Shown here: positions 665 through 38,641 of the stretch, in pieces
How positions within the stretch are numbered: the stretch's first letter is position 1
Layout of the letters: each line of letters opens with the position of its first letter
Assembly: GCA_017481875.1 (NCBI GenBank)
Contig: JAFUOP010000038.1
Location: forward strand, 1 to 64,000
Source of the DNA: Bacteroidaceae bacterium
Lineage (GTDB): Bacteria > Bacteroidota > Bacteroidia > Bacteroidales > Bacteroidaceae
Length of the DNA stretch: 64,000 nucleotides
Reading direction: 5' to 3'
The notes under the pieces: generated by a model
Database searches by the model: none
What the model was told of the DNA's origin: nothing
The model's input: the letters and a program-made list of their open reading frames with translations, nothing else
Made by a program: the position numbers and the translations under genes

Positions 665-1606
665 ATGAAAAAGCTACTTATATTCCTAATAATAGTCATA
701 GGTGCGCTTGCTAAGGCCAGCGCACAGTACGACGTGCACTTTACACATTATTGGAATATGCTTAACTTTTACAACCCTGCAGGAGCAGGAGCCACAGGAA
801 AGTTGTGGGGTTACACGGCATACAGCAACCAAATGACAGGCTTTGACAACAACCCTAAAAGTATGCTGCTAAATGTAGATTCCCCCATACCCTTTGTGCG
901 TGGCGACCACTCTTTAGGCGTTGGTGCGCTGAACGATGCTATAGGCCTCTTCACAAACCAGCACGTGTATTTCAACTACGCCTACGGTTTTAAGCTATTA
1001 GGTGGGCGTATGGCTGCGGGTGTGCAACTGGGAATACTTAATTGCGAGTTCGACAGCAAGGATATAGAGTTCGGTGGCGACAACAATGACCCCGCTTTTC
1101 CTTCGGGCACAGCCAATGGTAACAAATTTGATATTGGGTTGGGAGTACTTTTTCAACACAACGGGTTCTATGCAGGAATATCAGGTTTTCACCTCAATTC
1201 CCCTGTTATTCTGCTAGGTGAAACAAATGAAATTCAGATAGACCCATATTATAATTTTACAGCCGGAGGCAATATACCTATAAAAAATACGTTAATAACA
1301 ATACAGCCCTATTTTCAATTGATGACCGATTTTGTTTCGTGGCGTGCCGACTTAACAGCAAAAGGCACATACAAATACAACGACAAGGAGTATTTTGGAG
1401 GTGTAACATACAGCTACGACACATCTGTAGCACTGTTTTTGGGAATTGAGTTCCTTAACATCACAGCAAGCTACGCCTATGAACTTTACACATCGGGAGT
1501 AGGGGCAAAGAACGGAAACCACGACATATTTATAGGTTACAAAATGAACCTCGACATATTTAAGAAAGGGAAAAATAAACATAATAGTATAAGAATATTG
1601 AAATGA
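665..1606 (+). CDS. porP: T9SS outer-membrane protein, PorP/SprF family
   Basis: A 313-residue protein with a cleavable signal peptide (residues 1-20, ending ASAQ) followed by the family N-terminal region (YDVHFTHYWNMLNFYNPAGAG) and alternating strands typical of an outer-membrane beta barrel. PorP/SprF proteins are T9SS-associated barrels; in characterised systems they act with the GldK/N ring or anchor particular cargo at the surface. It is the first gene of the porP-gldK-gldL-gldM-gldN order, the standard arrangement in the order. Its stop overlaps the gldK start as ATGA (1603-1606), so the two are translationally coupled. The start at 665 gives the expected signal peptide. Family assignment is firm; the specific partner is inferred. 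Confidence 0.93.
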   Translation: MKKLLIFLIIVIGALAKASAQYDVHFTHYWNMLNFYNPAGAGATGKLWGYTAYSNQMTGFDNNPKSMLLNVDSPIPFVRGDHSLGVGALNDAIGLFTNQHVYFNYAYGFKLLGGRMAAGVQLGILNCEFDSKDIEFGGDNNDPAFPSGTANGNKFDIGLGVLFQHNGFYAGISGFHLNSPVILLGETNEIQIDPYYNFTAGGNIPIKNTLITIQPYFQLMTDFVSWRADLTAKGTYKYNDKEYFGGVTYSYDTSVALFLGIEFLNITASYAYELYTSGVGAKNGNHDIFIGYKMNLDIFKKGKNKHNSIRILK

Positions 1607-3033
1607 TGAAAAAGATAATTTATCTGCCAATGATTCTTTTGGCACTCGTTGCAGCGTCGTGCCTCAGCCCTCGCAGTTATGGAAATGCCAACGGAGGAGA
1701 AGTTACAGGAGTAAGTGCTACCGGCTTAAGCGAGCCCACGCCCTATGGCATGGTGCTTGTAAAGCGTGGTTCCATAAAAGTAGGAGAAGAAAAGGCCGAC
1801 TCATTATGGGGCACATCGGCTCCGGTTAAAGATATTTCGGTAGATGCATTTTGGATGGACGAGACAGAGATTTCCAATGCAAAATACCGTCAGTTCGTAT
1901 TCTGGGTGCGCGACTCCATCATTCGCGAACGCCTTGCCGACCCTGCATACGGTGGTGATGAAACATATAAAATAACCGAGGACGAATATGGTGAGCCCAT
2001 TGAGCCCTACTTGAACTGGAAAAAACCAATTCCCTGGCAACGCCCCACAGAAGATGAACAACGTGCTATAGAAAGCGTATATATAACAAACCCCATTACT
2101 GGCGAGAAAATGCTCGATGCTTCGCAGATGAACTACCGTTACAGCATCTACGATTATACACAGGCAGCATTGCGCAAGAACCGCTTGAACCCCGAAGAGC
2201 GCAACCGCAACACCGACATTCCCACCGACTATGACGCTGAGGTTATAATATCAAAAGACACAGCATACATTGATGACGATGGAATAATTGTGCGCGAGAC
2301 TATTACACGTCCCCTTTCAAGCCAATTCGATTTCTTGCACACATACATAGTAAATGTATATCCCGACACAACCTGCTGGGTAAACGATTTTCCCAATGCA
2401 AACAATGAAATGTACTTGAACTTATATTTCAGCCACCCCAACTACAACAACCACCCTGTTGTGGGAGTAAGCTGGGAGCAGGCAAACGCATTCTGTGCTT
2501 GGCGCACCGAATATCTGTTGCGCGGTTTAGGGCCACAGGCTAAATGGATTCAGAGATACCGCCTACCCTCGGAAGCAGAATGGGAATTTGCAGCACGTGG
2601 CAGAGAGGGTACAAAATTCCCCTGGGAGAGCGACGACACAAAGAGCGACGAGGGTTGCTACTATGCAAACTATAAACCCGAAGAGGGAAACTACACCAAA
2701 GACGGCAGCCTCATCACCTCCCGATGTGGAATATTTTCGGCCAATTCCAACGGGCTCTATGACATGGCCGGAAATGTAGCTGAATGGACATCTACGGTAT
2801 ATACCGAGGCCGGAATTCTACAAATGAGTGATATGAACCCCGACCTGCAATACAAAGCAGCTAAAGAGGACCCATACAGAATGAAGAAAAAAACCGTGCG
2901 TGGTGGTTCTTGGAAAGACGCTGTCAGGTTTATACAAGGTGCTACACGCAACTATGAATACCAAAACGAGTCTCGTTCATACATAGGATTCCGCTGTGTG
3001 CGTAGCTATGCCGGCATTGATAGAAGAAAATAA
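1603..3033 (+). CDS. gldK: T9SS ring lipoprotein GldK (PorK)
   Basis: A 476-residue lipoprotein with a signal peptide ending LVAASC (Cys about residue 20) followed by a sulfatase-modifying-factor (SUMF1/FGE-like) domain. Family landmarks are PVVGVSWEQANAFCAWR near residue 285, RLPSEAEWEFAARG near 325, GNVAEWT near 390, and VRGGSW plus GFRCVRS at the end. GldK forms the periplasmic outer-membrane-associated ring with GldN that contacts the GldLM motor. It is not expected to act as an enzyme. Translation can begin at either of two adjacent ATGs (1603 or 1606), the first overlapping the porP stop. The length matches the family. Confidence 0.95.
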   Translation: MMKKIIYLPMILLALVAASCLSPRSYGNANGGEVTGVSATGLSEPTPYGMVLVKRGSIKVGEEKADSLWGTSAPVKDISVDAFWMDETEISNAKYRQFVFWVRDSIIRERLADPAYGGDETYKITEDEYGEPIEPYLNWKKPIPWQRPTEDEQRAIESVYITNPITGEKMLDASQMNYRYSIYDYTQAALRKNRLNPEERNRNTDIPTDYDAEVIISKDTAYIDDDGIIVRETITRPLSSQFDFLHTYIVNVYPDTTCWVNDFPNANNEMYLNLYFSHPNYNNHPVVGVSWEQANAFCAWRTEYLLRGLGPQAKWIQRYRLPSEAEWEFAARGREGTKFPWESDDTKSDEGCYYANYKPEEGNYTKDGSLITSRCGIFSANSNGLYDMAGNVAEWTSTVYTEAGILQMSDMNPDLQYKAAKEDPYRMKKKTVRGGSWKDAVRFIQGATRNYEYQNESRSYIGFRCVRSYAGIDRRK

Positions 3034-3062
3034 CATAAAAACACTATTCATTATAAAAAGCT

Positions 3063-3827
3063 ATGGGCAAATATAAAAACACAATAAGACGAATTCAGGC
3101 ATTTATGGATTCGGCAAGAGGAAAAACCATTTTGAATTATCTTTACAGCTGGGGTGCCGCAATCGTAATCTTGGGTACATTGTTTAAACTGACACATATT
3201 GCAGGCGCAAACCTTATGCTTTTCGTTGGTATGGGAACCGAGGTTGTAGTATTCTTCTTCTCGGCATTTGAACGCCCCTACGATGTAGCTATCGACGAGA
3301 AGAAAGAAGAGGAAGCCGAAGAGAGAATCGCCGCAAATATTGTGGGAACAGGCCTGCAAGGAGGAACAATTGTTATTAATGGCACCATAGGCGGAGGAGG
3401 TACAGCACCAGCCGAGGGTGTTGTTGCAAGCACAGCCACACCAGCGGGTGGCGCAGTAGTCGGCACTACCACAGTACAAAGCGGAGCAACCATAACAGGC
3501 AACCCGCAGCTTATACCGCAAATGGACGAAGTAACAGAAGAGTACATAGAGAAGGTGCGCACACTGAACGATGCCATTAAACACATCTCCGAACAAGCAA
3601 ATGCGCTTGGCCGCAACATGGAAGAGATGGAAACACTTGGCCGCAACCTCACAGGCATAAACGCACTCTACGAGACACAGCTACGCAGTGCCGGAAACCA
3701 GGCCAATGCCATAGACCAGGTTAATGAGCAGACAAAGAAAATGGCTGCACAAATTGAAGAACTCAATGCTATGTATGCACGTATGATACAGGCAATGACA
3801 ACTAATATGAACAAGCCTCAAATTTAA
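3063..3827 (+). CDS. gldL: T9SS inner-membrane motor protein GldL (PorL)
   Basis: A 254-residue protein with two hydrophobic helices near the N-terminus (about 30-50 and 54-75), the second containing the conserved acidic residue in GTEVVVFFF. With GldM it forms the proton-driven motor that powers type IX secretion. The cytoplasmic part starts with a charged stretch (EKKEEEAEERI), then a long Gly/Ala/Thr/Val-rich linker (about 95-150), then a C-terminal predicted coiled coil with repeated heptad-like AxxLGRNMEEMETLGRNL. The low-complexity linker is unusually long by eye. Gene order and the two-helix plan make the assignment secure. Confidence 0.95.
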   Translation: MGKYKNTIRRIQAFMDSARGKTILNYLYSWGAAIVILGTLFKLTHIAGANLMLFVGMGTEVVVFFFSAFERPYDVAIDEKKEEEAEERIAANIVGTGLQGGTIVINGTIGGGGTAPAEGVVASTATPAGGAVVGTTTVQSGATITGNPQLIPQMDEVTEEYIEKVRTLNDAIKHISEQANALGRNMEEMETLGRNLTGINALYETQLRSAGNQANAIDQVNEQTKKMAAQIEELNAMYARMIQAMTTNMNKPQI

Positions 3828-3839
3828 GAGAACTACACA

Positions 3840-5417
3840 ATGAAGGTAAAGAAACAGAGAGTCTCACCACGCCAGAAGATGATTAACCTCATGTATGTTC
3901 TTCTGATGGCGATGCTTGCACTGAACGTCTCCTCCGACGTACTCAACGGCTTTACATTGGTCGATGAGAGCCTGTCGAAGAGTTCTATAAATGCAGGCAA
4001 GCAAAATGAGGCATTATATAAGGATTTTGAGTCCTTTATGGCGCAAAACCCCGAGAAAGTACGCGAATGGTACAACCGTGCCACTCACGTTAAAAATATA
4101 TCCGACTCCATTTACAACCTTGCCGATAGACTTAAGGTAAGCATTGCAAAGAAGGCCGACGGTGCCGAAGGCGACTATAACAACCTTGTAAACCGTGAGG
4201 ATTTGGAGGCCGCCACATCGGTGATGCTGGCTCCCGGCACAGGGCAAGGACAGATACTCTACGATGCCATTACAAAGTACCGCGAGGAGATACTCACAAT
4301 GGTAACCGATTCTGTACAACGCGCCATAATAGAGAGCAGTTTCAGCACCGAGGTGCCGCGTCGCGACATTTCACTGCTTAAAAACTGGCAGGAGTACCAT
4401 TTTGAAAGTATGCCCGCAATTGCAGCTATCACACTGCTCACAAAGCTACAAAACGACGTGAGATATGCCGAGGGTGAAGTGCTACACACACTTGCAAGAA
4501 ACATCGACGTGGGCGACGTGCGCGTGAACCAGATACGTTCATTGGTAATCCCCACATCGCGCAACGTGGTACGTGGCAGCGAGTTCTCGGCACAAATTAT
4601 TCTTGCAGCTGTCGATTCCACACAACGCCCGCAGATATTCATCGACGACAAATTATTCGAAACAGAAAATGGTGAATACAGCAAGTTGTGCAATACTGTA
4701 GGCGACTACACCCTTAACGGATATATGCTTGTGAACGACGGTGCAGGAGCACAGACACGCTACGATTTTTCACAGAAATACACTGTTGTAGAACCCACAG
4801 CCACAGTGAGCGCATCGCTTATGAACGTGCTGTACGCAGGCTTTGAGAACCCCGTGAGCATTTCAGTCCCGGGAGTAGCGGCAAACAAGATAAGTGCAAA
4901 CATTGCAAGTGGCAAGGGCTCACTAAAGAGCGACGGCAAGGGTGGCTACATTGTAACCCCCTCGCAAGTGGGCGAAGATATTGTAATAGGTGTAACAGCT
5001 ATAAACGAGGAGGGACGCAGCCAAAGCATGGGACAGTATGGCTTCCGTGTGCGCCAGCTCCCCGACCCCACCCCATTCATAGAGTATAAGGACAAAGACG
5101 GCAACACCCAACGCTACCGCGGTGGCACAGCCTTCAGCAAACAGGCCCTTATGAGCACCGACGGCATTGTGGCCGCCATAGACGACGGCCTGCTGAACAT
5201 AGGTTTCAAAGTGCTATCTTTTGAAACTGTTTTCTACGACAACATGGGCAACGCAATTCCTCTTTTGTCGCAAGGAGCCAGCTTCACAACACGTCAGAAG
5301 GATATGTTCCGCAATTTGAGCCGTGGCAAACGATTCTACATATCACACGTAAAGGCTATAGGCCCCGACAATGTAGAACGTCTGCTACCCACTTCACTTG
5401 AGGTAATAATAAACTAA
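3840..5417 (+). CDS. gldM: T9SS motor/spindle protein GldM (PorM)
   Basis: A 525-residue protein with one N-terminal membrane helix (MINLMYVLLMAMLALNV, about 14-31) and a large periplasmic region. GldM dimers pair with GldL in the inner membrane, and the periplasmic domains reach the GldKN ring. The family start KQRVSPRQKMINLMYVLLMAMLALNVS is recognisable, and the C-terminus ends in strand-rich domains (VSISVPG, GVTAINEEG, FRVRQLPDPTPFIEY). It starts 12 bases after gldL, consistent with one operon. Nothing in the sequence suggests damage. Confidence 0.96.
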   Translation: MKVKKQRVSPRQKMINLMYVLLMAMLALNVSSDVLNGFTLVDESLSKSSINAGKQNEALYKDFESFMAQNPEKVREWYNRATHVKNISDSIYNLADRLKVSIAKKADGAEGDYNNLVNREDLEAATSVMLAPGTGQGQILYDAITKYREEILTMVTDSVQRAIIESSFSTEVPRRDISLLKNWQEYHFESMPAIAAITLLTKLQNDVRYAEGEVLHTLARNIDVGDVRVNQIRSLVIPTSRNVVRGSEFSAQIILAAVDSTQRPQIFIDDKLFETENGEYSKLCNTVGDYTLNGYMLVNDGAGAQTRYDFSQKYTVVEPTATVSASLMNVLYAGFENPVSISVPGVAANKISANIASGKGSLKSDGKGGYIVTPSQVGEDIVIGVTAINEEGRSQSMGQYGFRVRQLPDPTPFIEYKDKDGNTQRYRGGTAFSKQALMSTDGIVAAIDDGLLNIGFKVLSFETVFYDNMGNAIPLLSQGASFTTRQKDMFRNLSRGKRFYISHVKAIGPDNVERLLPTSLEVIIN

Positions 5418-5464
5418 CAGCAGGGGCACCCTGCCACAAAATAAAGGATAAAATAAAAAAAGTT

Positions 5465-6556
5465 ATGAAATACGTTGGCAAATTAGTTGTTATCATAGCA
5501 GTATCCCTTATGGGACAATATGCAGTTGCACAGCCACCGGCTCGCATAAAGGAGAACACCAAGAAGGAGCAGAAGGCGGCTACCAATGCTGCAGTAACCG
5601 TGAATATGACAGAGCGCGCAAAGAGCCAGTACCCCGCAACCGTGGTACCACAAGAGGTTGTGTGGAAGCGCGACATATACCGTTCGCTCGACCTAAAGAA
5701 CGAGAAGAACGCGTCGCTCTACTACCCCGTAGAGCCTATGGGTGGCAGTGTAAACCTCTTTACATATGTGTTCCGCCTTATACTCGACGGCACAATAACA
5801 GCCTACAAATACAACCTCGACGGGTACGAAGCCTTCGACGAAGAAAACAAGATTTCTCCAAAGGACCTTCTCGACAACTACCGCATTTATTACGAGGAAA
5901 AAGATGGAGAGTTTGTTGTAAACAAGAGTGATGTTCCCAGTGGCGAGGTGCTGAGCTACTACATTAAGGAGAGCAACTACTACGACCAACGCACTGCCAC
6001 ATACAACACACGAGTAACAGCAATATGCCCTGTACTGCACCGCACAGCAAACGAGTTCAGCACAGATATTGTAAAATACCCTATGTTCTGGCTCAACTAC
6101 GACGAGATTTCCACCCTGCTTGCACAGCAGACACTTGTTACCAGCAGCTACAACAACGTGTCATCTATGACAATAAACGACTACTTTGTAAAAAACTGCT
6201 ACGACGGTGAGATATACAAAACAGTGAACCTCAGAAACCTTGCACTGAACCAATACTGCAAGGACAGCACAGAGGTGAAAAAAGAACAGGCAAACATTGA
6301 AAAGCAATTAACCGATTTCCGCGCCAATTTGTGGAGCACACCTACACCTGCAGTTTCTGCCGACACAACAAGCGTAGCAAAAGACTCTGTTGGAACAGAG
6401 AGTGTAAAAGAGGCAGAAAAGGTTGAGAAAAAGAGCACCTTCCGCAGTACCAAGAAAAAAAGCAAAGAAAAAAAGGAGAGTGTGAAACAGAAAAAAAGCA
6501 AAGAAAAAAGCAGCTCAGGTAGCGCAAAGGTTTCGGTAAGACGAACAAGACGATAA
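5465..6556 (+). CDS. gldN: T9SS ring protein GldN (PorN) with a basic C-terminal extension
   Basis: A 363-residue protein with a signal peptide (1-22, ending AVAQ). The family core includes VVWKRDIYRSLDL, NLFTYVFRLILDGTITAYKY and a later FWLNYDEI stretch. GldN binds GldK to form the periplasmic ring of the T9SS. The core appears to end near residue 290. After it comes a Ser/Thr/Ala segment and then a strongly basic tail with repeated KKKSKEKK-type blocks ending VRRTRR. This tail is odd for an exported protein and could bind an anionic partner or be disordered. It is the last gene of the operon and is followed by a hairpin at 6571-6610. Confidence 0.94.
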   Translation: MKYVGKLVVIIAVSLMGQYAVAQPPARIKENTKKEQKAATNAAVTVNMTERAKSQYPATVVPQEVVWKRDIYRSLDLKNEKNASLYYPVEPMGGSVNLFTYVFRLILDGTITAYKYNLDGYEAFDEENKISPKDLLDNYRIYYEEKDGEFVVNKSDVPSGEVLSYYIKESNYYDQRTATYNTRVTAICPVLHRTANEFSTDIVKYPMFWLNYDEISTLLAQQTLVTSSYNNVSSMTINDYFVKNCYDGEIYKTVNLRNLALNQYCKDSTEVKKEQANIEKQLTDFRANLWSTPTPAVSADTTSVAKDSVGTESVKEAEKVEKKSTFRSTKKKSKEKKESVKQKKSKEKSSSGSAKVSVRRTRR

Positions 6557-29357: not shown

Positions 29358-30301
29358 CAGTAAATGGTTTTTGCTATCTCATAAACACTGTCCATAGCAT
29401 TTATTGTGTAGAAATGAATGCTTGGAACACCCTTTGACATAAGCTCGCGACACTGCGCTATGGCCCATTCCCGCCCCACCTGTGCTGCTGCCACATCGTC
29501 TTTGCATTGCTGCATTGCAGCCACAAGCTCAACAGGTAAATCGACGTGGAAAGTTTTGGGCAGTATATTCAACTGCGACAGACGGTGCATCGGCTTTATT
29601 CCCGGAATAATAGGAATATTTATTCCCATTGCACGGGCACGCTCCACAAAGGCAAAATACTTTTCGTTGTCGAAGAACATTTGCGTAACGGCATACTCGG
29701 CACCGGCATCGGCTTTCTGTTTCAGAACCAAGAGGTCGCTCTCGAGGTTCGGAGCCTCCTCGTGTTTTTCGGGGTAACAAGCCACACCGCAAGTAAAATG
29801 CCCGCCACGCTCTTTCATAGGCGAGCCATCGATAAAATAACCCTCGTTGAAACGGCCCACCTGGTGCAGAAGATCTATTGCGTGAGCGTGGGAATTACAC
29901 TGCGCAGAGCCCTCTTTACACCTGTCGCCACGCAATACAAGAATGTCGGTTATACCCGATAGTTGCAAATCGATGAGCACATACTCGGTCTCTTCCAGCG
30001 AATAGCCGTTGCACAAAATATGCGGCACCACAGGCACACCAAAACGGTGCTGAATGGCAGTGGCCACAGCCACAGTACCCGGGCGGCGGCGTATGGTAGT
30101 GCGCTTGTATGTACCATCGCCCATAGCTGTATATACCGGCTCGCTATGGTGGGTGGTAATATTTATATATTTAGGCTTAAATTCCATAAGCCTCTCAATA
30201 TTGCTGAACAATTTCCCGGTACCGGTGCCCTTTATGGGTGGCAGCACCTCAAAAGAAAAAGCAGTTCCATTGCAATTATTTAAACTATCTATTACACTCA
30301 T
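29357..30301 (-). CDS. metF: 5,10-methylenetetrahydrofolate reductase
   Basis: A 314-residue FAD enzyme that makes 5-methyltetrahydrofolate for methionine synthesis. Seen: FSFEVLPP with the catalytic Glu near residue 20, YINITTHHSEPVY near 46, PHILCNGYSLEETEYVLIDL near 93, ILVLRGDR near 121 (the FAD-contact region), and ADAGAEYAVTQMFFDNEKYFAF near 195, followed by IPIIPGIKPM. The length is normal. It leads a minus-strand operon with holB, the PSP1 gene and gldH. The promoter region carries two copies of a 16-base palindrome, so expression is likely repressor-controlled. Confidence 0.95.
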   Translation of the reverse strand: MSVIDSLNNCNGTAFSFEVLPPIKGTGTGKLFSNIERLMEFKPKYINITTHHSEPVYTAMGDGTYKRTTIRRRPGTVAVATAIQHRFGVPVVPHILCNGYSLEETEYVLIDLQLSGITDILVLRGDRCKEGSAQCNSHAHAIDLLHQVGRFNEGYFIDGSPMKERGGHFTCGVACYPEKHEEAPNLESDLLVLKQKADAGAEYAVTQMFFDNEKYFAFVERARAMGINIPIIPGIKPMHRLSQLNILPKTFHVDLPVELVAAMQQCKDDVAAAQVGREWAIAQCRELMSKGVPSIHFYTINAMDSVYEIAKTIY

Positions 30302-30314
30302 TTTATATTGGCTG

Positions 30315-30366
30315 TTCTAATTAATTACAAAGAGGGCACAATGAGCCATTTTGTAATTAATTACAA
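30315..30366. promoter_or_regulatory. Paired palindromic operator candidates upstream of metF
   Basis: The perfect palindrome TTGTAATTAATTACAA at 30351-30366 recurs at 30315-30330 with one mismatch (C for G at the third base). They are 36 bases apart. The first overlaps the end of the metF -7 element, and the second lies in the leader just before the start codon. This is the layout of a dimeric repressor binding two sites. The regulator is unknown. Confidence 0.55.
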
Positions 30367-30393
30367 AAATAGTGCAAGCGAATGAAAAACAAA
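30364..30393 (-). promoter_or_regulatory. metF promoter
   Basis: On the minus strand TTTG (30393-30390), an 18-base spacer and TATTTTTG (30371-30364) fit the Bacteroidota consensus. The transcript would start inside the palindrome at 30351-30366. Confidence 0.6.
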
Positions 30394-30444
30394 ATAAATT
30401 TTGTGATTTTTGGCAACCAAAGTATAAAACATAATAAATAAAAA

Positions 30445-30470
30445 CTCCCTTCGCCACAACACGAAGGGAG
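30445..30470 (-). terminator. Terminator after the PepSY-like lipoprotein gene
   Basis: Nine-base arms (30445-30453 and 30462-30470); reading on the minus strand the stem is followed by a T-rich run (TTTTTATTTATT). It lies 30 bases after the stop of the gene at 30500-30943. Confidence 0.65.
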
Positions 30471-30499
30471 CAAAATAACTATATTATTAACATAAAAAA

Positions 30500-30943
30500 C
30501 TAAAGCTCATCTATCACAGTACCATCGAGCGACACTTTTAAATCTTTTTCAAAATTACCTTTCTCCACGTTTACTAAATAATAATCACCCGCAGAAGCCT
30601 GCACATAATCCACGTCGTCAATAAAATAACCGGGGTATTGTACATTTATGCCATCGACAGCAGCTTGTGGCAGGGAAGCCACAGGCACGTCCCACTCTGT
30701 GAGCACCCACTCATCGTTCTGGGTAAAATAAATATCTTTTTTCTTAGAATCGTGCACCACATCTACCTCTATAAGGCCATTGGGAGTTCTTTCGGCATCG
30801 GTAATAACAGCACCGGGATATTTTGTTGAGATAAAGCTCTTTACAGTGTCGCTGAGAACTACAGCAGGAGAATTATCGTCGTCGTTGCACGCAGCAAACA
30901 CCAATGCCGGCAACAGGAACAGGAAATACAAAATACGTTTCAT
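30500..30943 (-). CDS. PepSY-like (DUF2874-type) lipoprotein
   Basis: A 147-residue exported protein with a lipoprotein signal (LVFAACNDDDN, Cys near residue 19; the acidic residues after Cys fit a Bacteroidota surface-export signal). Two repeats of the PepSY-like kind follow: a helix with KSFISTKYPGAVITDAERTPNGLIEVDV, then DGINVQYPGYFIDDVDYVQASAGDYYLVNVEKG. Members of this family are small periplasmic or surface proteins often lying beside two-component systems; their function is not settled. The gene follows a second PepSY-like gene, separated by a 24-base palindrome, and ends with its own terminator. Confidence 0.75.
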   Translation of the reverse strand: MKRILYFLFLLPALVFAACNDDDNSPAVVLSDTVKSFISTKYPGAVITDAERTPNGLIEVDVVHDSKKKDIYFTQNDEWVLTEWDVPVASLPQAAVDGINVQYPGYFIDDVDYVQASAGDYYLVNVEKGNFEKDLKVSLDGTVIDEL

Positions 30944-30959
30944 AATGCTTTTAGCTTGT

Positions 30960-30983
30960 GAGCAATGCCTGCAGGCATTGCTC
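30960..30983. repeat. 24-base perfect palindrome between the two PepSY-like genes
   Basis: A self-complementary stem with GC-rich centre lies in the 59-base gap between two codirectional genes. It may be a partial terminator or an RNA-processing/stability hairpin that gives the two genes different expression. Confidence 0.5.
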
Positions 30984-31002
30984 TTGTTTATATTTAAGTT
31001 GT

Positions 31003-31443
31003 TTAGTTATCGATATCTATTATATTGAACTTTTTGTCGAAAGTGAGTTCAAAACGGTTGGACAGCTTAAGTTCATAATCGTTTGAATCGCGTTCTATTT
31101 TCAATATTTTAGCATCGGGGTAGTTGGCTGTTACATAGTCTCTTATAGCCTCGGGGACTATTGCAGCAGGGACCTCATTATAGCGACAATCTACATCTTT
31201 CCAAGCACCCTTGCGAGTGAATTCAAGTTTTGAGCCGTCGGCAAAAACAACCTCGTATGAGTGCTCCAAGAAATCGCGTTCCTGCTTTGCATAAGAAATT
31301 TTAAGACCGGCAAAGTGAGTATCTATAAATGTCTGAGCCTCGGCAGGGAGCATATTCTTGCTGATAATTTTGTCGTTATCGGCTCTTGCAGTTAATACAC
31401 TAAGTGAAAGAATCGCAGCAAATACAAATAAAATCTTTTTCAT
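31003..31443 (-). CDS. PepSY-like (DUF2874-type) periplasmic protein
   Basis: A 146-residue protein with a cleavable signal peptide (MKKILFVFAAILSLSVLTARA). Two PepSY-like units follow: LPAEAQTFIDTHFAGLKISYAKQ...YEVVFADGSKLEFTRKGAWKDVD, and IPEAIRDYVTANYPDAKILKIER...YELKLSNRFELTFDKKFNIIDID. It differs from its downstream neighbour in having a cleaved rather than lipidated export signal. The upstream divergent region holds the promoter of the secreted-protein pair starting at 31707. Function unknown; an inhibitor or sensor role at the envelope is only a family-based guess. Confidence 0.75.
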   Translation of the reverse strand: MKKILFVFAAILSLSVLTARADNDKIISKNMLPAEAQTFIDTHFAGLKISYAKQERDFLEHSYEVVFADGSKLEFTRKGAWKDVDCRYNEVPAAIVPEAIRDYVTANYPDAKILKIERDSNDYELKLSNRFELTFDKKFNIIDIDN

Positions 31444-31613
31444 AATTTCAGTTTTTAATTAGTTTTATATTCTACTTTAACAAGCGAAAGAGATATTCTG
31501 TTTAAACCCTTTCTTCATTATTTCCAATGCAAAGATTATGCACGATTCTGAAATGAAATTGAAATAAAAAAGAAAACACAAACAATATTCAAATTTTAAC
31601 ATAAATTAACAAC

Positions 31614-31620
31614 GGGGGGG
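31614..31620 (+). repeat. G7 homopolymer at the -33 position of a surface-protein promoter
   Basis: Seven consecutive G residues 21 bases before the -7 element at 31642-31649, in the place where a TTTG box would be expected. Confidence 0.6.
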
Positions 31621-31641
31621 TAATTATAGACATTTTAAATT

Positions 31642-31649
31642 TATATTTG
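31642..31649 (+). promoter_or_regulatory. -7 element for the T9SS-tail protein pair
   Basis: TATATTTG, an exact TAnnTTTG match, 57 bases before the start at 31707. No TTTG is present at -33; a G7 run occupies that position. Confidence 0.5.
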
Positions 31650-31706
31650 CACAAATATTAACATTTACAACAGTTTAAGATATTTACTCACATTAATTTA
31701 AAGCCT

Positions 31707-32183
31707 ATGAAAAAACTCAAATTCTTAATTCTTTTGCTGCTTCTTGCAACATTCAACATTGCTGCAACAGCACAAAACAGCCTGGTTATTTACTTAACCG
31801 ACGGCAGCACCGCTGTTTTTCCCCTGGCGGAACTACCCGAGATAACCTTTGAGGGCGAAAACTTCAAAGTAGTAGCAAAGCAGGCAAATATTGAACTACC
31901 ACGCGCCGAAGTCAAGGAATTTAAATTCGAAGACCGCGAGAGCACTGCAATAGAAGATGTTACAGAAGAAGGGGACAACGCAACATTCAACGCCGACAAC
32001 AACTACATAACAATCGACGGCATTGCCAACGGCACACAAGTAACAATATTCAATATTAAGGGACAAAAAGTTCTTGCAAGCACTGCCACAAACAACAGCT
32101 GCTGCATATCACTCGAAAGCCTGACGGCAGGCCTGTACATTATTAATTATAACAGCACAACCATTAAATTCTTGAAAAAATGA
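31707..32183 (+). CDS. Small secreted protein with a T9SS type-A-like sorting tail
   Basis: A 158-residue protein. Parts in order: signal peptide (1-22, ending ATAQ); a leader domain of two related strand units (LVIYLTDGSTAVFPLAELPEITF and VVAKQANIELPRAEVKEFKFE); a short linker starting at about 80; and a C-terminal sorting tail, VTIFNIKGQKVL ... SLTAGLYIINY ... IKFLKK, the classic strand pattern of T9SS substrates with a lysine-rich end. There is no obvious functional body, so it is a leader joined to a tail. Its stop overlaps the start of the 709-aa gene by ATGA (32180-32183). Part of its tail-coding DNA (32086-32153) is repeated at 34367-34434. Confidence 0.8.
   Translation: MKKLKFLILLLLLATFNIAATAQNSLVIYLTDGSTAVFPLAELPEITFEGENFKVVAKQANIELPRAEVKEFKFEDRESTAIEDVTEEGDNATFNADNNYITIDGIANGTQVTIFNIKGQKVLASTATNNSCCISLESLTAGLYIINYNSTTIKFLKK
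32086..32153 (+). repeat. 68-bp direct repeat, copy 1 (in-frame sorting tail)
   Basis: Matches 34367-34434 at 65 of 68 positions by hand count (a block of 35, a 7-base stretch with three differences, a block of 26). Here it encodes part of the sorting tail of the 158-aa protein. Confidence 0.9.
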
Positions 32184-34309
32184 GAAAAACTTTACTTGCA
32201 TTAGCCACCTTGTGTATAGCACTTTTCACACAAGCACAAGATGTGAACACAATGTATATCAACTACAAAAGCGGAGAAACCGTTGAAGTGGAAGTTGCAG
32301 AGGTTGAAAGTATTACATTTACTAAACCTTTTAAAACAAATGATCTTTGGATTTCTCGCATCCATGAGAGTGGTAGATACAACTGGATCACTTCACACGG
32401 TGAGAACGTTCACTTCTGGCATAACCCCATTGGCGTAAACACTCACAGTAGCACAAACGCTGCTTTTGGCGATGCTAAAGATTGTGCTAAAGACAACATC
32501 GATGATATCCGCGTTATAGACATTCTCTACAACAAAGATAGCGACTTGGACGACTACATAGGCGTATGCTTGCAGGACGGTACATCACACAGCGAGTTCA
32601 CACAGATGGAGGAGCATAACTTAGGTATTGCCTATACAATGGCTGACATCGAGGTTGACATCGTAACTGAGGAGGGTTTGGCCGTTGAGACAGACCAGAA
32701 CAAGTTTATCAAACTCAAAGGCAGCGTGGTTACTCCTACAACTTACAACTTCGGCGACTACCACCGTTCATCAATCGGCCGCCGTCCCATTATTATGGCA
32801 GAGTTGTACCAAGAGAAAAATGGCCAAAAGACTACTATCAAGACAGCTTACATCGTTCTTCAGATTGTTACTGACATGACAACCGGTGGCGGTGTGGGAG
32901 GAGGCTCCAACACTTATGAAACAACTTTCAACGAGTACAATTTCACCACAACAGATTACTTCGGTAAGGAGGTTGACTTCTGCGATGGCGACGTTGTTGA
33001 AATCACAGCGGAGCAGATGAACTATGTTTACACAGGTGAGAAAGTTTCTAAGGAAGAGTTTGCAAGCAACTATCTATTCTATCCTACTTCTACTTCTATA
33101 AGAATCAACGGTAAGACATACATCACAACCGAGGGTGTAAGCTACTCTGCAAACGTTGGTGCTGAAACAACTTACGGTTTGACATGGGCTCTTGATGCTG
33201 ATTATATCTGGAACAATGCAGGTACAACACCTAAAGCAACAGCTATCTACAGGCACAAGAGCAAAGACCACTACGTAATCATCAATCTCACAACTAAGCA
33301 GGCTATTCCTTCTCACAAGGCAGATCTCCAGCTCAACAGCGAGAAGATTGAGGAGTATTGGAAGAACGATTTGACTATTGCCGACTTCACCACACGCGTG
33401 CCTTATTTTGGAGAGAACACAAGTGAACAATGCGTTTTTGAGAACGATATTTTAACCCTCTTCAGAGAGAACAAGGATCCCAAAACTCTCTTGGAGAAGA
33501 AGATTAACACAAGCATCTACAAAGTAAGCTCTGTAACAGGCGTTTCTAATGTTGATGTAGAATATGTTATCACGGGTGCTACTTGCTCAGGCCAGAAGAC
33601 AAAAGGTACATTCAGAGTTGTAAATGGCACAATCCTCAACTACCGTGTAAGCGGCACAGATCACTTCATTGCAGAGTTGAGAGGCAATTCAGTATTCTTC
33701 AACAACGATCACACTGACAACGTAATTGCAGAAGAGTTGCTCAACACAAACAACCTCGTTGTAACATTCGACGTTAAGGCAGAGTTTGAGAGCTGCCTCG
33801 GTACATATGCCATTCCTACAGAGGGTGGTGCAGCCTTCGATGTTCACTATGTCCGCCCCATAAATGTAAAAAATAGCACATCGGTATCATTCCAGGACGG
33901 TGTTGATTTTGGTGGTGAAGGCACATTGTTAAAGACTTCTGACGTTATTGCTTTGTTCGACTGGCGTAACCGAGAAATTACAAAAGATAGCTACCTCTTT
34001 GGTTATTATGGCATCAGCCGTGTAACAGTTGATAACAGCAAAATCACATGCAACGTGGAATCTGGTAACAACATCATGCTACCTGTTGGTATAAAGGCAG
34101 GTATTGTCGATAACGGAGCAAAAAATGATGCTAGCTTAGCACCTATACTGGGTAATTTAGCTAACGATGAATGGCTATTCTACTACAATTACAGCGGTAC
34201 CGTTCTTCAGGAGAATATCTCAATCAACTTCCCCGTTATCGTTGAGTACTGGTGGGGTAAGGTTGTTACAGAAACAGTTACTGTAACGGTAAAAAAGGCA
34301 AATTACTAA
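32180..34309 (+). CDS. Large secreted protein of unknown function without sorting tail
   Basis: A 709-residue protein with a signal peptide (1-19, ending FTQA) and a leader unit YINYKSGETVEVEVAEVESITFTKP resembling that of the upstream 158-aa protein. The rest (from about residue 55) looks like several beta-sandwich domains separated by a TTGGGVGGGS linker near 235. A repeated theme is ITAEQMNYVYTGEKV / INGKTYITTEGVS / YIWNNAGTTP, and the last domain ends VIVEYWWGKVVTETVTVTVKK. I do not recognise the family; adhesin or structural surface protein is the likely class. It ends without a T9SS tail although its coupled neighbour has one. By eye, the body uses more ATC, CTT and GTT codons than neighbouring genes, suggesting a different origin from its leader. 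Confidence 0.8.
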   Translation: MRKTLLALATLCIALFTQAQDVNTMYINYKSGETVEVEVAEVESITFTKPFKTNDLWISRIHESGRYNWITSHGENVHFWHNPIGVNTHSSTNAAFGDAKDCAKDNIDDIRVIDILYNKDSDLDDYIGVCLQDGTSHSEFTQMEEHNLGIAYTMADIEVDIVTEEGLAVETDQNKFIKLKGSVVTPTTYNFGDYHRSSIGRRPIIMAELYQEKNGQKTTIKTAYIVLQIVTDMTTGGGVGGGSNTYETTFNEYNFTTTDYFGKEVDFCDGDVVEITAEQMNYVYTGEKVSKEEFASNYLFYPTSTSIRINGKTYITTEGVSYSANVGAETTYGLTWALDADYIWNNAGTTPKATAIYRHKSKDHYVIINLTTKQAIPSHKADLQLNSEKIEEYWKNDLTIADFTTRVPYFGENTSEQCVFENDILTLFRENKDPKTLLEKKINTSIYKVSSVTGVSNVDVEYVITGATCSGQKTKGTFRVVNGTILNYRVSGTDHFIAELRGNSVFFNNDHTDNVIAEELLNTNNLVVTFDVKAEFESCLGTYAIPTEGGAAFDVHYVRPINVKNSTSVSFQDGVDFGGEGTLLKTSDVIALFDWRNREITKDSYLFGYYGISRVTVDNSKITCNVESGNNIMLPVGIKAGIVDNGAKNDASLAPILGNLANDEWLFYYNYSGTVLQENISINFPVIVEYWWGKVVTETVTVTVKKANY

Positions 34310-34320
34310 CGTATAAAATG

Positions 34321-34362
34321 ATAGAAAAAAGATTGAGGGCTAGCCCTCAATCTTTTTTCTAT
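34321..34362. terminator. 42-bp perfect palindrome terminator
   Basis: Perfect self-complementarity over 42 bases centred on GGGCTAGCCC with A6/T6 flanks, 11 bases after the stop of the 709-aa gene. It ends four bases before the sorting-tail relic. Confidence 0.85.
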
Positions 34363-34366
34363 CTCC

Positions 34367-34440
34367 CCACAAACAACAGCTGCTGCATATCACTCGAAAG
34401 CATGGCAGCAGGCCTGTACATTATTAATTATAACAAAGAT
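34367..34440 (+). pseudogene. Untranslated relic of a T9SS sorting tail (68-bp repeat, copy 2)
   Basis: The segment 34367-34434 repeats 32086-32153 and, in the equivalent frame, still reads SLES-MAAGL-YIINYN followed by KDITIEL, a plausible sorting-tail end. No start codon or open body precedes it: upstream are a stop codon and a 42-bp palindrome. The frame runs on to a stop at 34486-34488, inside the 3' end of the convergent histidine-kinase gene. Two of the three differences from copy 1 change residues (L-T to M-A), so it is a diverged paralogous tail rather than a very recent copy. Confidence 0.75.
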
Positions 34441-34465
34441 ATCACTATTGAATTGATATTATTGT

Positions 34466-35734
34466 TTATATACCAAACCCTATTTTAAACAAATGCCTGC
34501 CCTCGTTGAATGAGTATTCCACCTTCATTTTATAACTGCGGGCAATGGAACCCACTAGAGCAAGACCAAGCCCTGTGTTACCCGTTTTGCCCTGCTTATA
34601 AAAGCGGTGGAACAGGCGTGTTGAATCTAAAGCCTCACTGCCACTATTAGCAAAAATGAGGGTGCTGCCTGTGGTGTAAACAGATATTTTGCCACCGCCG
34701 GGCGAGTGAAGGAAGGCATTCTTCAATAGGTTGGTTACAAAAATGGTTGCAAGTTCCTCGTTCATGCGGAACACAAGACGTTGCGGCAAATCTACCACGC
34801 ACTCTATTCCTCGCCCAGCATATATCTCGGAATAGGTTTCAGCCTCTTCCCTTATTAGTTCTGCTATATTTACATCGGCAACCTCAGGAAACTGCCCGTT
34901 ATCTATTTTTGCAAGCAACAGAAGGGTGCGGTTCAGGCGCACCAAACGACGCAATGCCTGCTGCATTTTGTTAAGCTCAGCAGCCTGTTCGTTGGTCAAC
35001 GCCGTGTTATCGAGCAGCCACTCTATGCGGTTACCAAGCACGGCAAGCGGTGTTTGCAATTCGTGCGATGCATTGCCTATAAACTGTTTTTGCTGTTCAA
35101 AGTAGCTCTCGGCACGGGTTATTGTGGCTCTTGCCGAATCTATGAGATTGCGGAACTCCACCACCGATGGCGATGCAGGGAAGTTACTCACTCCCTTACC
35201 GGGCGTGTACTGTTCGAGCCAGCCAAGCAGGCGATAGAGCGGGCGCATACTGCGGTGGAACACAAAGATTGTGGCAAGGAATATTGTGAGCACTATAGCC
35301 AGGAAGAGCACCAAAATGTGCCAGAATACTGAGGACAAGAGGTCTTCGCGCTCAAATGTGGGCATTACCACCTGTAGGCGGTACATTGCGCCATCGGCAT
35401 CGGAAAAGCAGGTAGTGAGCACACGAGCCGGCTCGGTCTCTCGTTTTTCGTGGATATACACAAGTGAGTCGCTGTATTGCATTGAAGGCACAACGGATTT
35501 GTCGTGCCCCAGGAACTCCAGCACGTAGCTGTTGTTGGTACCATCGCCCACGGCAGGCAACTCCTTGCCTGCAAGCGTACGACGCATTATAAGCTCTGCA
35601 TAGCCCTCGAGGCTGTCGTCGGCTTCGTCGTTTATCTCCTCTACCATTGCAAAGTAGAAAACCACCGACCAAAGGGCCAAAATGGGCAAGAGTGCCACCG
35701 CCAGGCGCACAAGAATTGTATTCAATAGTTTCAT
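34466..35734 (-). CDS. Sensor histidine kinase, OmpR-partner type
   Basis: The frame opens at 35749, but the ATG at 35732-35734 overlaps the response-regulator stop as ATGA and starts the first membrane helix (MKLLNTILVRLAVALLPILALW), so I use it. About 422 residues: helix 1 (9-28), a periplasmic sensor region (about 30-135), helix 2 (about 138-160), a short HAMP-like linker, the dimerisation domain with the phospho-acceptor His in NASHELQTPLAVL (near 224), and an ATPase domain with the N-box NLLKNAFLHSPGGG and the G-box GNTGLGLALV. It pairs with the upstream regulator. The stimulus is not evident. Confidence 0.93.
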   Translation of the reverse strand: MKLLNTILVRLAVALLPILALWSVVFYFAMVEEINDEADDSLEGYAELIMRRTLAGKELPAVGDGTNNSYVLEFLGHDKSVVPSMQYSDSLVYIHEKRETEPARVLTTCFSDADGAMYRLQVVMPTFEREDLLSSVFWHILVLFLAIVLTIFLATIFVFHRSMRPLYRLLGWLEQYTPGKGVSNFPASPSVVEFRNLIDSARATITRAESYFEQQKQFIGNASHELQTPLAVLGNRIEWLLDNTALTNEQAAELNKMQQALRRLVRLNRTLLLLAKIDNGQFPEVADVNIAELIREEAETYSEIYAGRGIECVVDLPQRLVFRMNEELATIFVTNLLKNAFLHSPGGGKISVYTTGSTLIFANSGSEALDSTRLFHRFYKQGKTGNTGLGLALVGSIARSYKMKVEYSFNEGRHLFKIGFGI

Positions 35735-36414
35735 GGCTCTACCTCGCAAAATTTATAACCAAAACCATAGACCGCCTTCACATTGTATGTGGCAGCCGCA
35801 TCGGCAAGCCTTTTTCTCAAGTTTTTTATTTGTGCATAAACAAACTGAAAATTGTCGGCAGCATCAATATGGTCGCCCCAAACAGACTCGGCAAGCACAG
35901 CTTTATCGACAATGTGGCCCGGGCGTTGCATAAAATAGAGCAAGATATCAAACTCTTTTTTGAGCAGTGGCACATCGCTGCCGGCCACCGACACTCGGCG
36001 ACTATCTATATTCAGTTCTATGTTACCGGCCTTCATCTGCCTGGACACAGCAGCACTACCCCTGCGCAATACGCTTTTTATACGCGCCGACAGCTCGGCT
36101 ATATAAAAAGGCTTGGCAAGGTAGTCATCGGCACCGAGGTCGAGCCCCGCAACCTTGTCGTCTATGGAGTCGCGTGCCGATATTATTATTACGCGGTCGC
36201 CCTTGTCGAGAGATTTTATGTGTTCAAGCAATTTAAGACCGTTACCATCGGGCAACATTATATCGAGCAGAATGCAGTCGTAGCTGTAACCCGCTATTTT
36301 ATCTTCAGCATCGAAGAATGTGGCGGCACTCTCCACCACATAACCCTCGCTACGCAGTGCGCGGCACATTATCTCGTTCAGCGAGGCGTCGTCTTCTATT
36401 ATAAGCAGCTTCAT
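35731..36414 (-). CDS. OmpR/PhoB-family response regulator
   Basis: A 227-residue regulator. The receiver domain (1-120) has the acidic pair DD near 8, the phospho-acceptor Asp in CILLDIMLPDG (near 51), the conserved S/T in VIIISARDS and Lys in YLAKPF. The winged-helix domain (about 130-225) has LLKKEFDILLYFMQRPGHIVDKAVLAESVWG and YGFGYKF. It is cotranscribed with the kinase, overlapping by four bases. A TACGTTTG -7 element at 36433-36440 lies just upstream, giving a very short leader. PepSY-like genes on the far side of the secreted-protein pair are possible targets, by family association only. Confidence 0.95.
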   Translation of the reverse strand: MKLLIIEDDASLNEIMCRALRSEGYVVESAATFFDAEDKIAGYSYDCILLDIMLPDGNGLKLLEHIKSLDKGDRVIIISARDSIDDKVAGLDLGADDYLAKPFYIAELSARIKSVLRRGSAAVSRQMKAGNIELNIDSRRVSVAGSDVPLLKKEFDILLYFMQRPGHIVDKAVLAESVWGDHIDAADNFQFVYAQIKNLRKRLADAAATYNVKAVYGFGYKFCEVEP

Positions 36415-36432
36415 AGTAAAAAGTATTTACTG

Positions 36433-36440
36433 CAAACGTA
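36433..36440 (-). promoter_or_regulatory. -7 element of the two-component operon
   Basis: TACGTTTG on the minus strand (36440-36433), an exact TAnnTTTG match about 19 bases before the regulator start; no clear -33 box. Confidence 0.4.
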
Positions 36441-36481
36441 CAACCTGATTTTGAAAAGAAATTGAAATTCCCTTGCAAAAA

Positions 36482-38641
36482 TCAAAGGCTGCCGTAATGC
36501 TCCACAAGGTCGAAATCGAGTTGCTTGCGGTCGAGGTTGGCACGCGCTATGCGCACACGCACTGCATCGCCTATGGTGTAACGCCCGTGCTTGCGGCGGC
36601 CCACGAGGCAGTAGTTTGCATCGTCAAACTCGTAGTAATCGTCTTGCAGTGTGCGCACAGGAATCATACCCTCGCACTTGTTATCGTTTATTTCGGCATA
36701 TATACCCCACTCGGTAACGCCACTTATCACGGCATCGAACTCCTCGCCTATGTGCTCGCTCATAAACTCCACCTGCTTGTATTTAATGCTTGCACGCTCG
36801 GCATTGGCTGCCACCTGCTCCTGTGCCGAGCAGTGGTCGCAGAAATCCTCGTACTTGGGAAGGCTCACCGAGCGGGAACCCTGCAACAGGTAGCGTGTCA
36901 GCAGGCGGTGGACAAGAAGGTCGGGGTAGCGGCGTATGGGCGATGTAAAGTGTGTGTAGTAACGGAATGCAAGGCCGTAGTGCCCTATATTTTCGGTGGA
37001 GTAACGCGCCTTTTGCATTGTGCGCACAGATATCTGTTCTATAACGTTCTGCTCTTTAGTGCCGTGCACCTCCTTGAGCAGGTTGTTCATAGCCGTAGCC
37101 GACGTAGTGCGCCCCGAGCCACTGCGCATCTTGTAGCCCAGCTTGCTCACAAATTTAGAGAGCATAGCAAGTTTTTCGGGGTCGGGCTGGTCGTGTATGC
37201 GATAGACAAAGGTTTTGGGGCTGTTGCCCGGGGCACGGCGGCCTATTCTTTCGGCCACAGTGCGGTTGGCAAGGAGCATAAACTCCTCTATAAGCTGGTG
37301 CGACTCATTGCTCTCGCTGAAATAAACCGACAGAGGCTTGCCCGCCTCGTCGAGGCGGAAATGCACCTCGGCTTGCTGGAAGTCTATGGCACCTGCATCG
37401 AAACGCTTACTGCGCATAACTTGTGCAAGTGAATTGAGCAAAGAAATCTCTTTGTAAAACTCGCCCTCGCCTTTTTCTATTATCTGCTGCACCTCGTCGT
37501 AGCAGAAACGGCGGTTGCTGTTTATCACTGAACGGCAAATGCGATACTCCTTCACTTCGGCTTTTTCGTTCATTGTGAAGATGACCGAATAGGTGAGCTT
37601 ATCTTCGTGTGGGCGCAAGGAGCAGAGGAAGTTGCAAAGCCTTTCGGGCAGCATAGGTATTGTTCTATCTACAAGGTAGATTGATGTGGCACGCTTAAAG
37701 GCCTCTTTGTCTATGGTGCTGCCCTCGGTAACGTAGAACGATACATCGGCAATGTGCACACCCACCTCCCACAAACCGCCGGGGAGGGGGCGCACCGACA
37801 GCGCATCGTCAAAATCCTTGGCATCATCGGGGTCGATGGTAAATGTGGTTACCTCGCGGAAATCCTCGCGGGCGGCAATCTCCTCGGGGGTGATACCCAC
37901 CGGTAGCCTCTCGGCAGCCTGTTCCACTGCGGCGGGGTATGTATAAGGAAGGCCGAATTCCGCAAGAATAGCGTTCATCTCGGTATCATTTTCGCCCGCC
38001 TTGCCTAAGATATCCAGCACCTTACCCACGGGATTTTTGCTCTCGGCAGGCCACTCAAGCAGTTTCACAACCGCCTTGTCGCCGTTCTTTCCACCTTTTA
38101 AAAGGTCTTTGGGAATAAATATATCAAAAGGCATCAAACGGTTCTCAGTGAGCAGAAAAGCATAGTGCTTTTCCACGTGCAGCTCGCCCACAAAGGTATC
38201 GTGCGCACGCTTAAGCACTTCCACCACCTCTCCTTCGCGACCACGACCGCGACGATTGGCAAAGAGCGCGAGACGCACATAATCGTCGGTGAGAGCGTGC
38301 CCCGAATTGCGTTCCGTAACAATTACCGGCTCGCTGTCATCTTCGGGGTAAAAAAGGTTGTAACCGTTATTGTTGCGCTGGAATGTACCCAGCATAGAAG
38401 TGCTGCTGTTGGCAAGCTGGTAGCGGCGGAAAGCCGGCTCAATGAGATAGCCATCGAACACAAGGTCGTCGAGAATACTCACGCACAGCGTGCGTGCCGA
38501 TGACGATGTGAGGGCAAGCTCCTTGAAAATCTCCTTTGTACTTATCGGCTCACCTTCGTGCCTGTTAAAGAACTCCACAAGCATATCCACAAGCACGCGC
38601 TTGTTCATTCGCCCCTTTGATTTTCCACCTTTCTTTGCCAT
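36482..38641 (-). CDS. rnr: Ribonuclease R
   Basis: A 719-residue processive 3'-5' exoribonuclease of the RNB family that degrades structured RNA. A basic N-terminus (AKKGGKSKGRMNKR) precedes a winged-helix region, cold-shock domains, and the RNB catalytic domain with TFTIDPDDAKDFDDALSVRPL (the four Asp metal ligands, near 252-262), VGVHIADVSFYV near 279, and FRYYTHFTSPIRRYPDLLVHRLL near 570. A C-terminal S1 domain ends EGMIPVRTL ... RVRIARANLDRKQLDFDLVE. It is complete and the length is typical. Confidence 0.96.
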   Translation of the reverse strand: MAKKGGKSKGRMNKRVLVDMLVEFFNRHEGEPISTKEIFKELALTSSSARTLCVSILDDLVFDGYLIEPAFRRYQLANSSTSMLGTFQRNNNGYNLFYPEDDSEPVIVTERNSGHALTDDYVRLALFANRRGRGREGEVVEVLKRAHDTFVGELHVEKHYAFLLTENRLMPFDIFIPKDLLKGGKNGDKAVVKLLEWPAESKNPVGKVLDILGKAGENDTEMNAILAEFGLPYTYPAAVEQAAERLPVGITPEEIAAREDFREVTTFTIDPDDAKDFDDALSVRPLPGGLWEVGVHIADVSFYVTEGSTIDKEAFKRATSIYLVDRTIPMLPERLCNFLCSLRPHEDKLTYSVIFTMNEKAEVKEYRICRSVINSNRRFCYDEVQQIIEKGEGEFYKEISLLNSLAQVMRSKRFDAGAIDFQQAEVHFRLDEAGKPLSVYFSESNESHQLIEEFMLLANRTVAERIGRRAPGNSPKTFVYRIHDQPDPEKLAMLSKFVSKLGYKMRSGSGRTTSATAMNNLLKEVHGTKEQNVIEQISVRTMQKARYSTENIGHYGLAFRYYTHFTSPIRRYPDLLVHRLLTRYLLQGSRSVSLPKYEDFCDHCSAQEQVAANAERASIKYKQVEFMSEHIGEEFDAVISGVTEWGIYAEINDNKCEGMIPVRTLQDDYYEFDDANYCLVGRRKHGRYTIGDAVRVRIARANLDRKQLDFDLVEHYGSL

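Follow-up and report, generated by a model that had tools for sequence, protein, structure and literature searches.

A small type IX-tailed protein and its coupled tailless partner as possible halves of a split cargo in Bacteroidaceae

The window analysed here is a 64,000-nucleotide stretch of a Bacteroidaceae genome (G000:C28:1-64000; genome of 2.02 Mb in 48 contigs, 76% complete), in which two overlapping plus-strand genes, A (31707..32183) and B (32180..34309, stop at 34307-34309), may encode the two halves of a split cargo of the type IX secretion system (T9SS), with A lending its sorting signal to B in trans. We give this reading a probability of roughly 0.55. Broadly, A would supply a type A sorting tail and B a secreted body with neither tail nor lipid anchor, and the ATGA overlap of the genes would couple their translation so that each protein is made next to the other. 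Once in the periplasm, A would probably dock onto the leader module of B and take B with it to and through the T9SS. With the signal carried on A, any body placed behind the leader would gain a route and bodies would become exchangeable; the window appears to show such a case, with a body known otherwise from lipoproteins placed behind the leader. The contact between A and B, the export of B and the origin of a stray tail copy downstream of B are what we infer. Names of PepSY-like genes, por genes and the Pfam and NCBIfam domains cited are backed by family matches, those of the histidine kinase (HK), response regulator (RR), RNase R, metF, proB, proC, frdA and frdB were assigned by sight without a family search, and lipoproteins were called by eye and with a regular expression.

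Gene A encodes a 158-aa protein with a signal peptide (called by eye, as is that of B), a small N-terminal module and a T9SS type A tail, the last of which had been proposed in the initial annotation of this stretch and is borne out by two models over their cut-offs (TIGR04183, 29.9 bits against 23; PF18962, Por_Secre_tail, 31.7 bits against 27). Within the genus, where we kept 80 protein-spanning rows out of 104 match rows, A proteins are about 155 aa long and 78 of the 80 match TIGR04183. K154 is the invariant lysine near the C-terminus in the alignment of these 80 proteins, and all 120 A proteins inspected have two to four basic residues among their last eight. Excerpts of three studies (PMC10202324; PMC11969387; PMC10994853) present a basic motif at the C-terminus as necessary to T9SS tails or nearly invariant in them. 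Matches to A occur in 43 of 44 genomes of the genus and, at E 1e-9, in 224 of 301 genomes of the family (19 of 30 genera); plasmids and phages searched with A gave no match. We count the T9SS machinery as present, since the window also holds the core genes porK, porL, porM and porN, at a distance of 25 kb from the pair (1603..6556, plus strand; four NCBIfam equivalogs over cut-off), and SprA_N is found in 44/44 genomes of the genus. By its tail, its conserved lysine and the T9SS genes of the genome, A qualifies as a type A cargo, and its export is predicted.

The stop of A and the start of B share an ATGA (32180..32183, plus strand), a -4 geometry kept in 79 of the 80 A genes of the genus, the remaining one having B at +3; a further A of the window genome, outside the 80 (C31:27190), likewise has B at -4. 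As background, four of 31 same-strand neighbours in the window lie at -4, the A-B pair included, and none of the five larger open reading frames (ORFs) of the window genome with a tail match has a -4 neighbour (two of the five fall below the curated cut-off). Outside the genus, B was found at -4 in 33 of the first 40 places with A. A and B have homologous N-terminal modules (hhalign probability 83, E 8.7e-6, in a single comparison of 18 rows each), in agreement with the earlier view of the two leaders as being of the same sort.

None of the T9SS tail models of Pfam and NCBIfam matches any of the 80 genus B proteins (TIGR04183, 0/80, four of the B being truncated at contig ends), which suggests that B probably never had a tail to lose, and our own tail model found none among 39 B from outside the genus at E 0.1 or better. 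An AQ-type cleavage site was recognised by regular expression in 75/80 B, with one lipobox-like match. The B of the window (709 aa, secreted as judged by eye, without T9SS tail or lipobox) was rightly described as tailless, as neither Pfam nor NCBIfam, tail models included, yields a match to it at E 1. Solved structures gave no match for it and neither did plasmids searched with B (phages were not searched with B), and a structure search with a homologue of its body returned matches nearly all of which fall in collagen-like repeats.

Sequence comparison indicates that B is a chimera of a leader from A-B pairs and a body otherwise found in lipoproteins. The leader, about residues 1-50 (32180..32329, plus strand), is common to a second pair of the same genome (G000:C28:70556-71769), whose leader is 62% identical and whose body, of FISUMP type, belongs to another cluster; at the DNA level, homology between the two pairs runs from 31595, close to the left edge of the block described below, to 32328, the latter corresponding to codon 50 of B. 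The body (32342..34306, plus strand) is elsewhere the C-terminal part of long lipoproteins. It is 56% identical to a 1017-aa lipoprotein of genome G035 from residue 363 on (the C-terminal two thirds), the N-terminus of which differs, and a five-row alignment puts it at 24% identity with proteins of G387, G157 and G301. These four homologues (939-1017 aa) start as lipoproteins with a Cys followed by an acidic stretch, which resembles a known lipoprotein export signal, and they end at about the same point as the window body, without a tail. Two weaker matches (G075, G051) were seen without the starts of the proteins, and at E 1e-15 the body occurs in 5/399 genomes of the family, including that of the window. 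The body-matching lipoproteins are possibly of the S-layer kind of BT1927, a 100-kDa surface lipoprotein (PMC12578637, as excerpted).

Codon choice in the body is indeed different, as had been noted by eye, with ATC making up 52% of Ile and GTT 56% of Val codons, far from the window genes; the deviation from the norm is 0.49 for the body, 0.07-0.21 for 12 of 13 long window ORFs and 0.58 for one (at 50 codons, the leader is too short for a codon-usage test). The G035 homologue is nearer to this choice (ATC 36%, GTT 56%), and we rejected a foreign codon usage of the body because its bias (rich in ATC, GTT and GGT) resembles that homologue; a guess would be that it reflects high expression. A frameshift fusion of A to B was also rejected, on inspection, since the signal peptide would sit behind the tail. 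The G035 lipoprotein (L024 3132-6185, G035:C40) combines collagen-like GKDG repeats with the body of the window gene B.

The bodies behind the B leader are diverse. Among the 80 B, Pfam recognises Cthe_2159 (41), a transglutaminase core (8), Lcl_C (6), LRR_5 (5), CotH (4), SusD-like domains (2 to 3) and others, and BLAST sorts the bodies into 11 clusters, the largest with 42 members and three being singletons. In a quickly built tree of the 80 A proteins, a group of five close rows (SH-aLRT 94) combines four kinds of body, the window A has the A of the second pair as its sister (support 98), and mapping body labels requires 14 changes where the minimum is 10. Across locus pairs with differing bodies, the identity of A and that of the leader are correlated (r 0.22, reached by 0/1000 permutations), which suggests that leaders tend to travel with A. 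Genome G001 holds a tandem A-B-A-B with its two pairs 97 bp apart; its three A copies compared are 91.5-94% identical, the leaders 63-80%, the FISUMP-type bodies 63-79% and the upstream DNA 50-62%. A copies kept this alike could act as recombination arms. Overall, these comparisons support the body as an exchangeable module behind a conserved leader.

The same kinds of body can also be followed outside A-B pairs. For CotH bodies, a census of 30 loci (out of 91 match rows) found five with A at -4 and no lipobox, four of them without a tail, seven lipoproteins without A (one, L256, with just 145 nt of upstream DNA) and 18 that lack A and have a signal peptide of the ordinary kind. Fifteen of these 18 match TIGR04183, as do none of 11 C-termini tested from the A-coupled and lipoprotein classes; the Pfam tail model matches just 3/18 of the signal-peptide class. 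With our own tail model (scaled to 3000 sequences), the same 18 score best, 15 of them at E 0.0011 or better, the best remaining CotH score being that of a lipoprotein (L259, E 32); marginal matches from small sets (L258 upstream, L259 tail) were left out of the counts. One clear route was assigned in 27/30 loci (A upstream 5, lipid anchor 7, own tail 15), 3 being doubtful, and two routes together were found in 0/30 (the C-terminus of L264 is unread). A CotH-type B of an A-B pair (L131, G012:C252) is cut by an in-frame stop.

Set against known systems, the pair resembles T9SS type A cargo with a C-terminal domain (CTD; TIGR04183/PF18962) in that A has the tail and the basic C-terminus and the genome has T9SS genes, but the large partner in the window has no signal and the tail is on a separate, coupled small protein. 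Described T9SS cargo carries its signal in cis, and export is presented as dependent on a C-terminal signal that the cargo bears itself (PMC10202324, excerpt); among the top papers listed by literature searches for a tail-lending or coupled T9SS pair, none is about such a pair. Type B CTD cargo and its PorP/SprF partner are usually encoded together (PMC10202324, excerpt), a likeness to A and B, yet there the cargo keeps its own CTD. If the proposed association holds, the pair would be like the Tat hitchhiker PaoABC (PMC4273604) and T7SS heterodimers (PMC10730906), in which, as excerpted, a signal-less subunit leaves with its partner, although these use other machineries with no known homology to the A-B version proposed here. 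Bacteroidales surface lipoproteins share the window body as the C-terminal part of 939-1017-aa proteins, but the window protein lacks both the lipobox and their N-terminal third. Contact between A and B through CTD strands is conceivable, since a T9SS CTD can dimerise via strand swapping (PMC4804311, excerpt).

The pair is part of a block of 2.9 kb (31603..34485, edges approximate) that is absent between the PepSY and HK genes of four relatives. Genomes G014, G010 and G031, whose RNase R part is 98-99% identical, and G036 have RNase R, RR, HK, PepSY and PepSY in succession, and neither A nor B has a match there. The flanks are homologous up to about 31602 and again from about 34486, and nothing in the gaps of the four relatives matches the stray tail; since the last HK codons vary among relatives, the right edge may be off by some 50 bp. 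From these breaks and the empty gaps, we consider A, B, the palindrome described below and the stray tail as one block, so that promoter, A and B would sit between PepSY and HK where close relatives have nothing. PepSY also adjoins HK without A or B in G034 and G002 (the gaps themselves were not compared). The site of the second pair is similar, as frdB and proC are adjacent without a pair in G014, G031 and G010; in G036 no A or B stands next to frdB, but proC is absent there too. A related element of about 100 bp (by eye) lies in the HK-PepSY gap of G010 (L029) and in the frdB gaps of G031 and G036 (L252, L251). It thereby occupies gaps of relatives at both A-B sites of the window genome and might mark insertion-prone gaps; with up to 3 mismatches allowed, the window has no match to a 36-base core of this element.

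Near the right end of the block, the tail-coding segment of A (32086..32154, plus strand) recurs as a direct repeat at 34367..34435 (plus strand), 69 bp long with 66/69 positions identical (96%) and the three differences within two neighbouring codons, while the next best match to the A tail in the window genome reaches 76%. The repeat, given as 68 bp in the initial annotation, is real, and so is the perfect palindrome after the stop of the 709-aa gene, four bases before the copy; the latter measures 44 bp, not 42 (34320..34363, plus strand; two 22-bp arms, no spacer), and lies between the convergent B and HK genes. The continuation of the copy (34436..34488, plus strand, frame stop at 34486-34488) is weakly tail-like, with Glu in place of the invariant lysine of A and no basic residue in the last motif, and with these lost the relic is most likely dead, contrary to the idea that it still reads as a sorting tail. 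It copies the tail of the upstream gene A and most likely has no function. The relic keeps to the frame of the tail, which could start from an ATG at 34318 and pass through the palindrome, but no signal peptide is seen by eye. In a scan of up to 700 nt beyond B at 76 loci, a stranded tail turned up in the window alone, the other strong tail match being the intact next A of G001.

The palindrome is probably a terminator serving both B and HK. Long stems (arms of at least 18, short loops) are common: the window has five, with arms of 19-24, and 722 kb of locus sequence yielded 47 different ones, several of them right after B (e.g., L095, L098, L144, L154). The palindrome is not among these 47, and a search for it elsewhere matched only itself (a weak test, with two candidates scored per genome). 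A terminator pattern scan rated it terminator-like on the minus strand only, with a scan total of 2 against 2.1 in shuffles. The palindrome as a cassette end was rejected, as it is an ordinary stem that does not recur among the 47. No recombinase was recognised by eye among the ORFs of 29000-38000, a region to which no family search aimed at one was applied.

As to how the stray tail arose, recombination between A copies (leaving the remnant of an A-B-A tandem, or a duplicate made by integration at the tail) or local copying would each leave it near the right block end; any of the three may apply, an assembly error being conceivable as well. Tandems such as that of G001 exist and offer a possible source. 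It is a substantial possibility, though short of even, that the stray tail has nothing to do with any exchange of bodies and is just an assembly artefact or a chance local copy (e.g., from template switching near the palindrome). That it occurs in 1/76 stretches, the intact next A excluded, would fit this explanation, as would the single assembly behind the window locus and a junction that was not found in viral contigs (where little was expected). The three point differences and the diverged end speak against a simple assembly duplicate, and a local copy would go together with A and B as halves of a split cargo.

The alternative that bears on the pair itself, and that we consider rather doubtful, is that A and B are only co-expressed, A being a surface protein of its own (a receptor or regulator) and B staying in the periplasm or leaving otherwise. 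Small CTD proteins with other roles or routes exist, such as PorA (246 aa) and Fjoh_0547 (112 aa), and serve as a warning (PMC7712824, excerpt). Several of our own observations also weigh against the split cargo. B may be neither outside the cell nor bound to A. ATGA overlaps are common in bacteria and indicate co-expression only. Seven of the 40 A from outside the genus lack the scripted -4, having B at -22 (with an in-frame ATG at -4), -1, +8, +64, +90 or +324, or no B at all, and one genus B is marginal to our own tail model (E 0.01). Bodies are strongly clustered on the A tree, which suggests that exchange is real yet infrequent. In the CotH census, the fifth A-coupled protein (L264) is broken by a stop that leaves its C-terminus unread, three of the 18 counted as own-tail CotH, L322 included, have no TIGR04183 match, and with our own model L323, L324 and L322 reach only E 0.034, 0.17 and 5.7; as judged from these scores, L322, L323 and L324 may be secreted with neither tail nor A.

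The 30 loci of the FISUMP census weigh in the same direction: four have A, 13 are lipoproteins, seven are secreted without tail or A (L290, L295, L299, L302, L303, L307, L311), two of which (L295, L299) have an A-B-type leader, and six are unclear or non-secreted (L286, L301, L305, L308, L312, L314). Our own tail model found an own tail in 0/30, and FISUMP bodies fit the one-route picture only partly. FISUMP proteins with an A-B-type leader and no A found upstream (L333, L334) are possible orphans.

These seven FISUMP proteins and up to three CotH proteins are what mere co-expression would lead one to expect. What tells against it is that A, a lipid anchor and an own tail are mutually exclusive in the 30 CotH loci (with the end of L264 unread), that SusD-like bodies, from a family whose members are otherwise surface lipoproteins, occur among B, and that the proteins homologous to the window body are lipoproteins in which an acidic stretch follows the Cys. 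We lean towards A and B as halves of one cargo.

The explanation favoured in the initial annotation, in which a cassette bringing its own stop and terminator took the place of the body in a local gene made of leader, body and tail and left the old tail stranded, is very improbable, because, although the repeat, the palindrome and the chimeric B are real, the site is empty of A, B and tail in four relatives, 0/80 B match a T9SS tail model in NCBIfam, the four body homologues stop tailless at about the same point, and the relic, at 96% identity against 76% for the next best copy, matches the tail of A at the same locus and not a lost tail of B. What survives of the body swap is the exchangeable body behind a conserved leader; the ancestral tailed gene and the palindrome as a recurring cassette mark do not. 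Similarly, a rerouting away from the T9SS had been envisaged, and if there was any, the direction from lipoprotein to T9SS-coupled pair is more likely.

More generally, and tentatively (we rate it just short of an even chance), Bacteroidaceae may have an escort system, in which tailed proteins of ~155 aa, each coupled to a tailless client, export their clients through the T9SS in trans. Bodies would move between lipid anchor, own tail and escort, and near-identical escort genes would act as recombination arms, the dead tail being their trace. If a coupled partner does lend its signal, a class of surface proteins (carbohydrate-binding, transglutaminase, CotH and SusD-like) escapes lists of T9SS cargo based on tails, and the pairs would offer a natural way to ask what passes the T9SS as a complex.

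Around the pair (window 30500-36414), two PepSY-like genes stand beside the HK/RR pair, an order that is kept in the nearest relatives.

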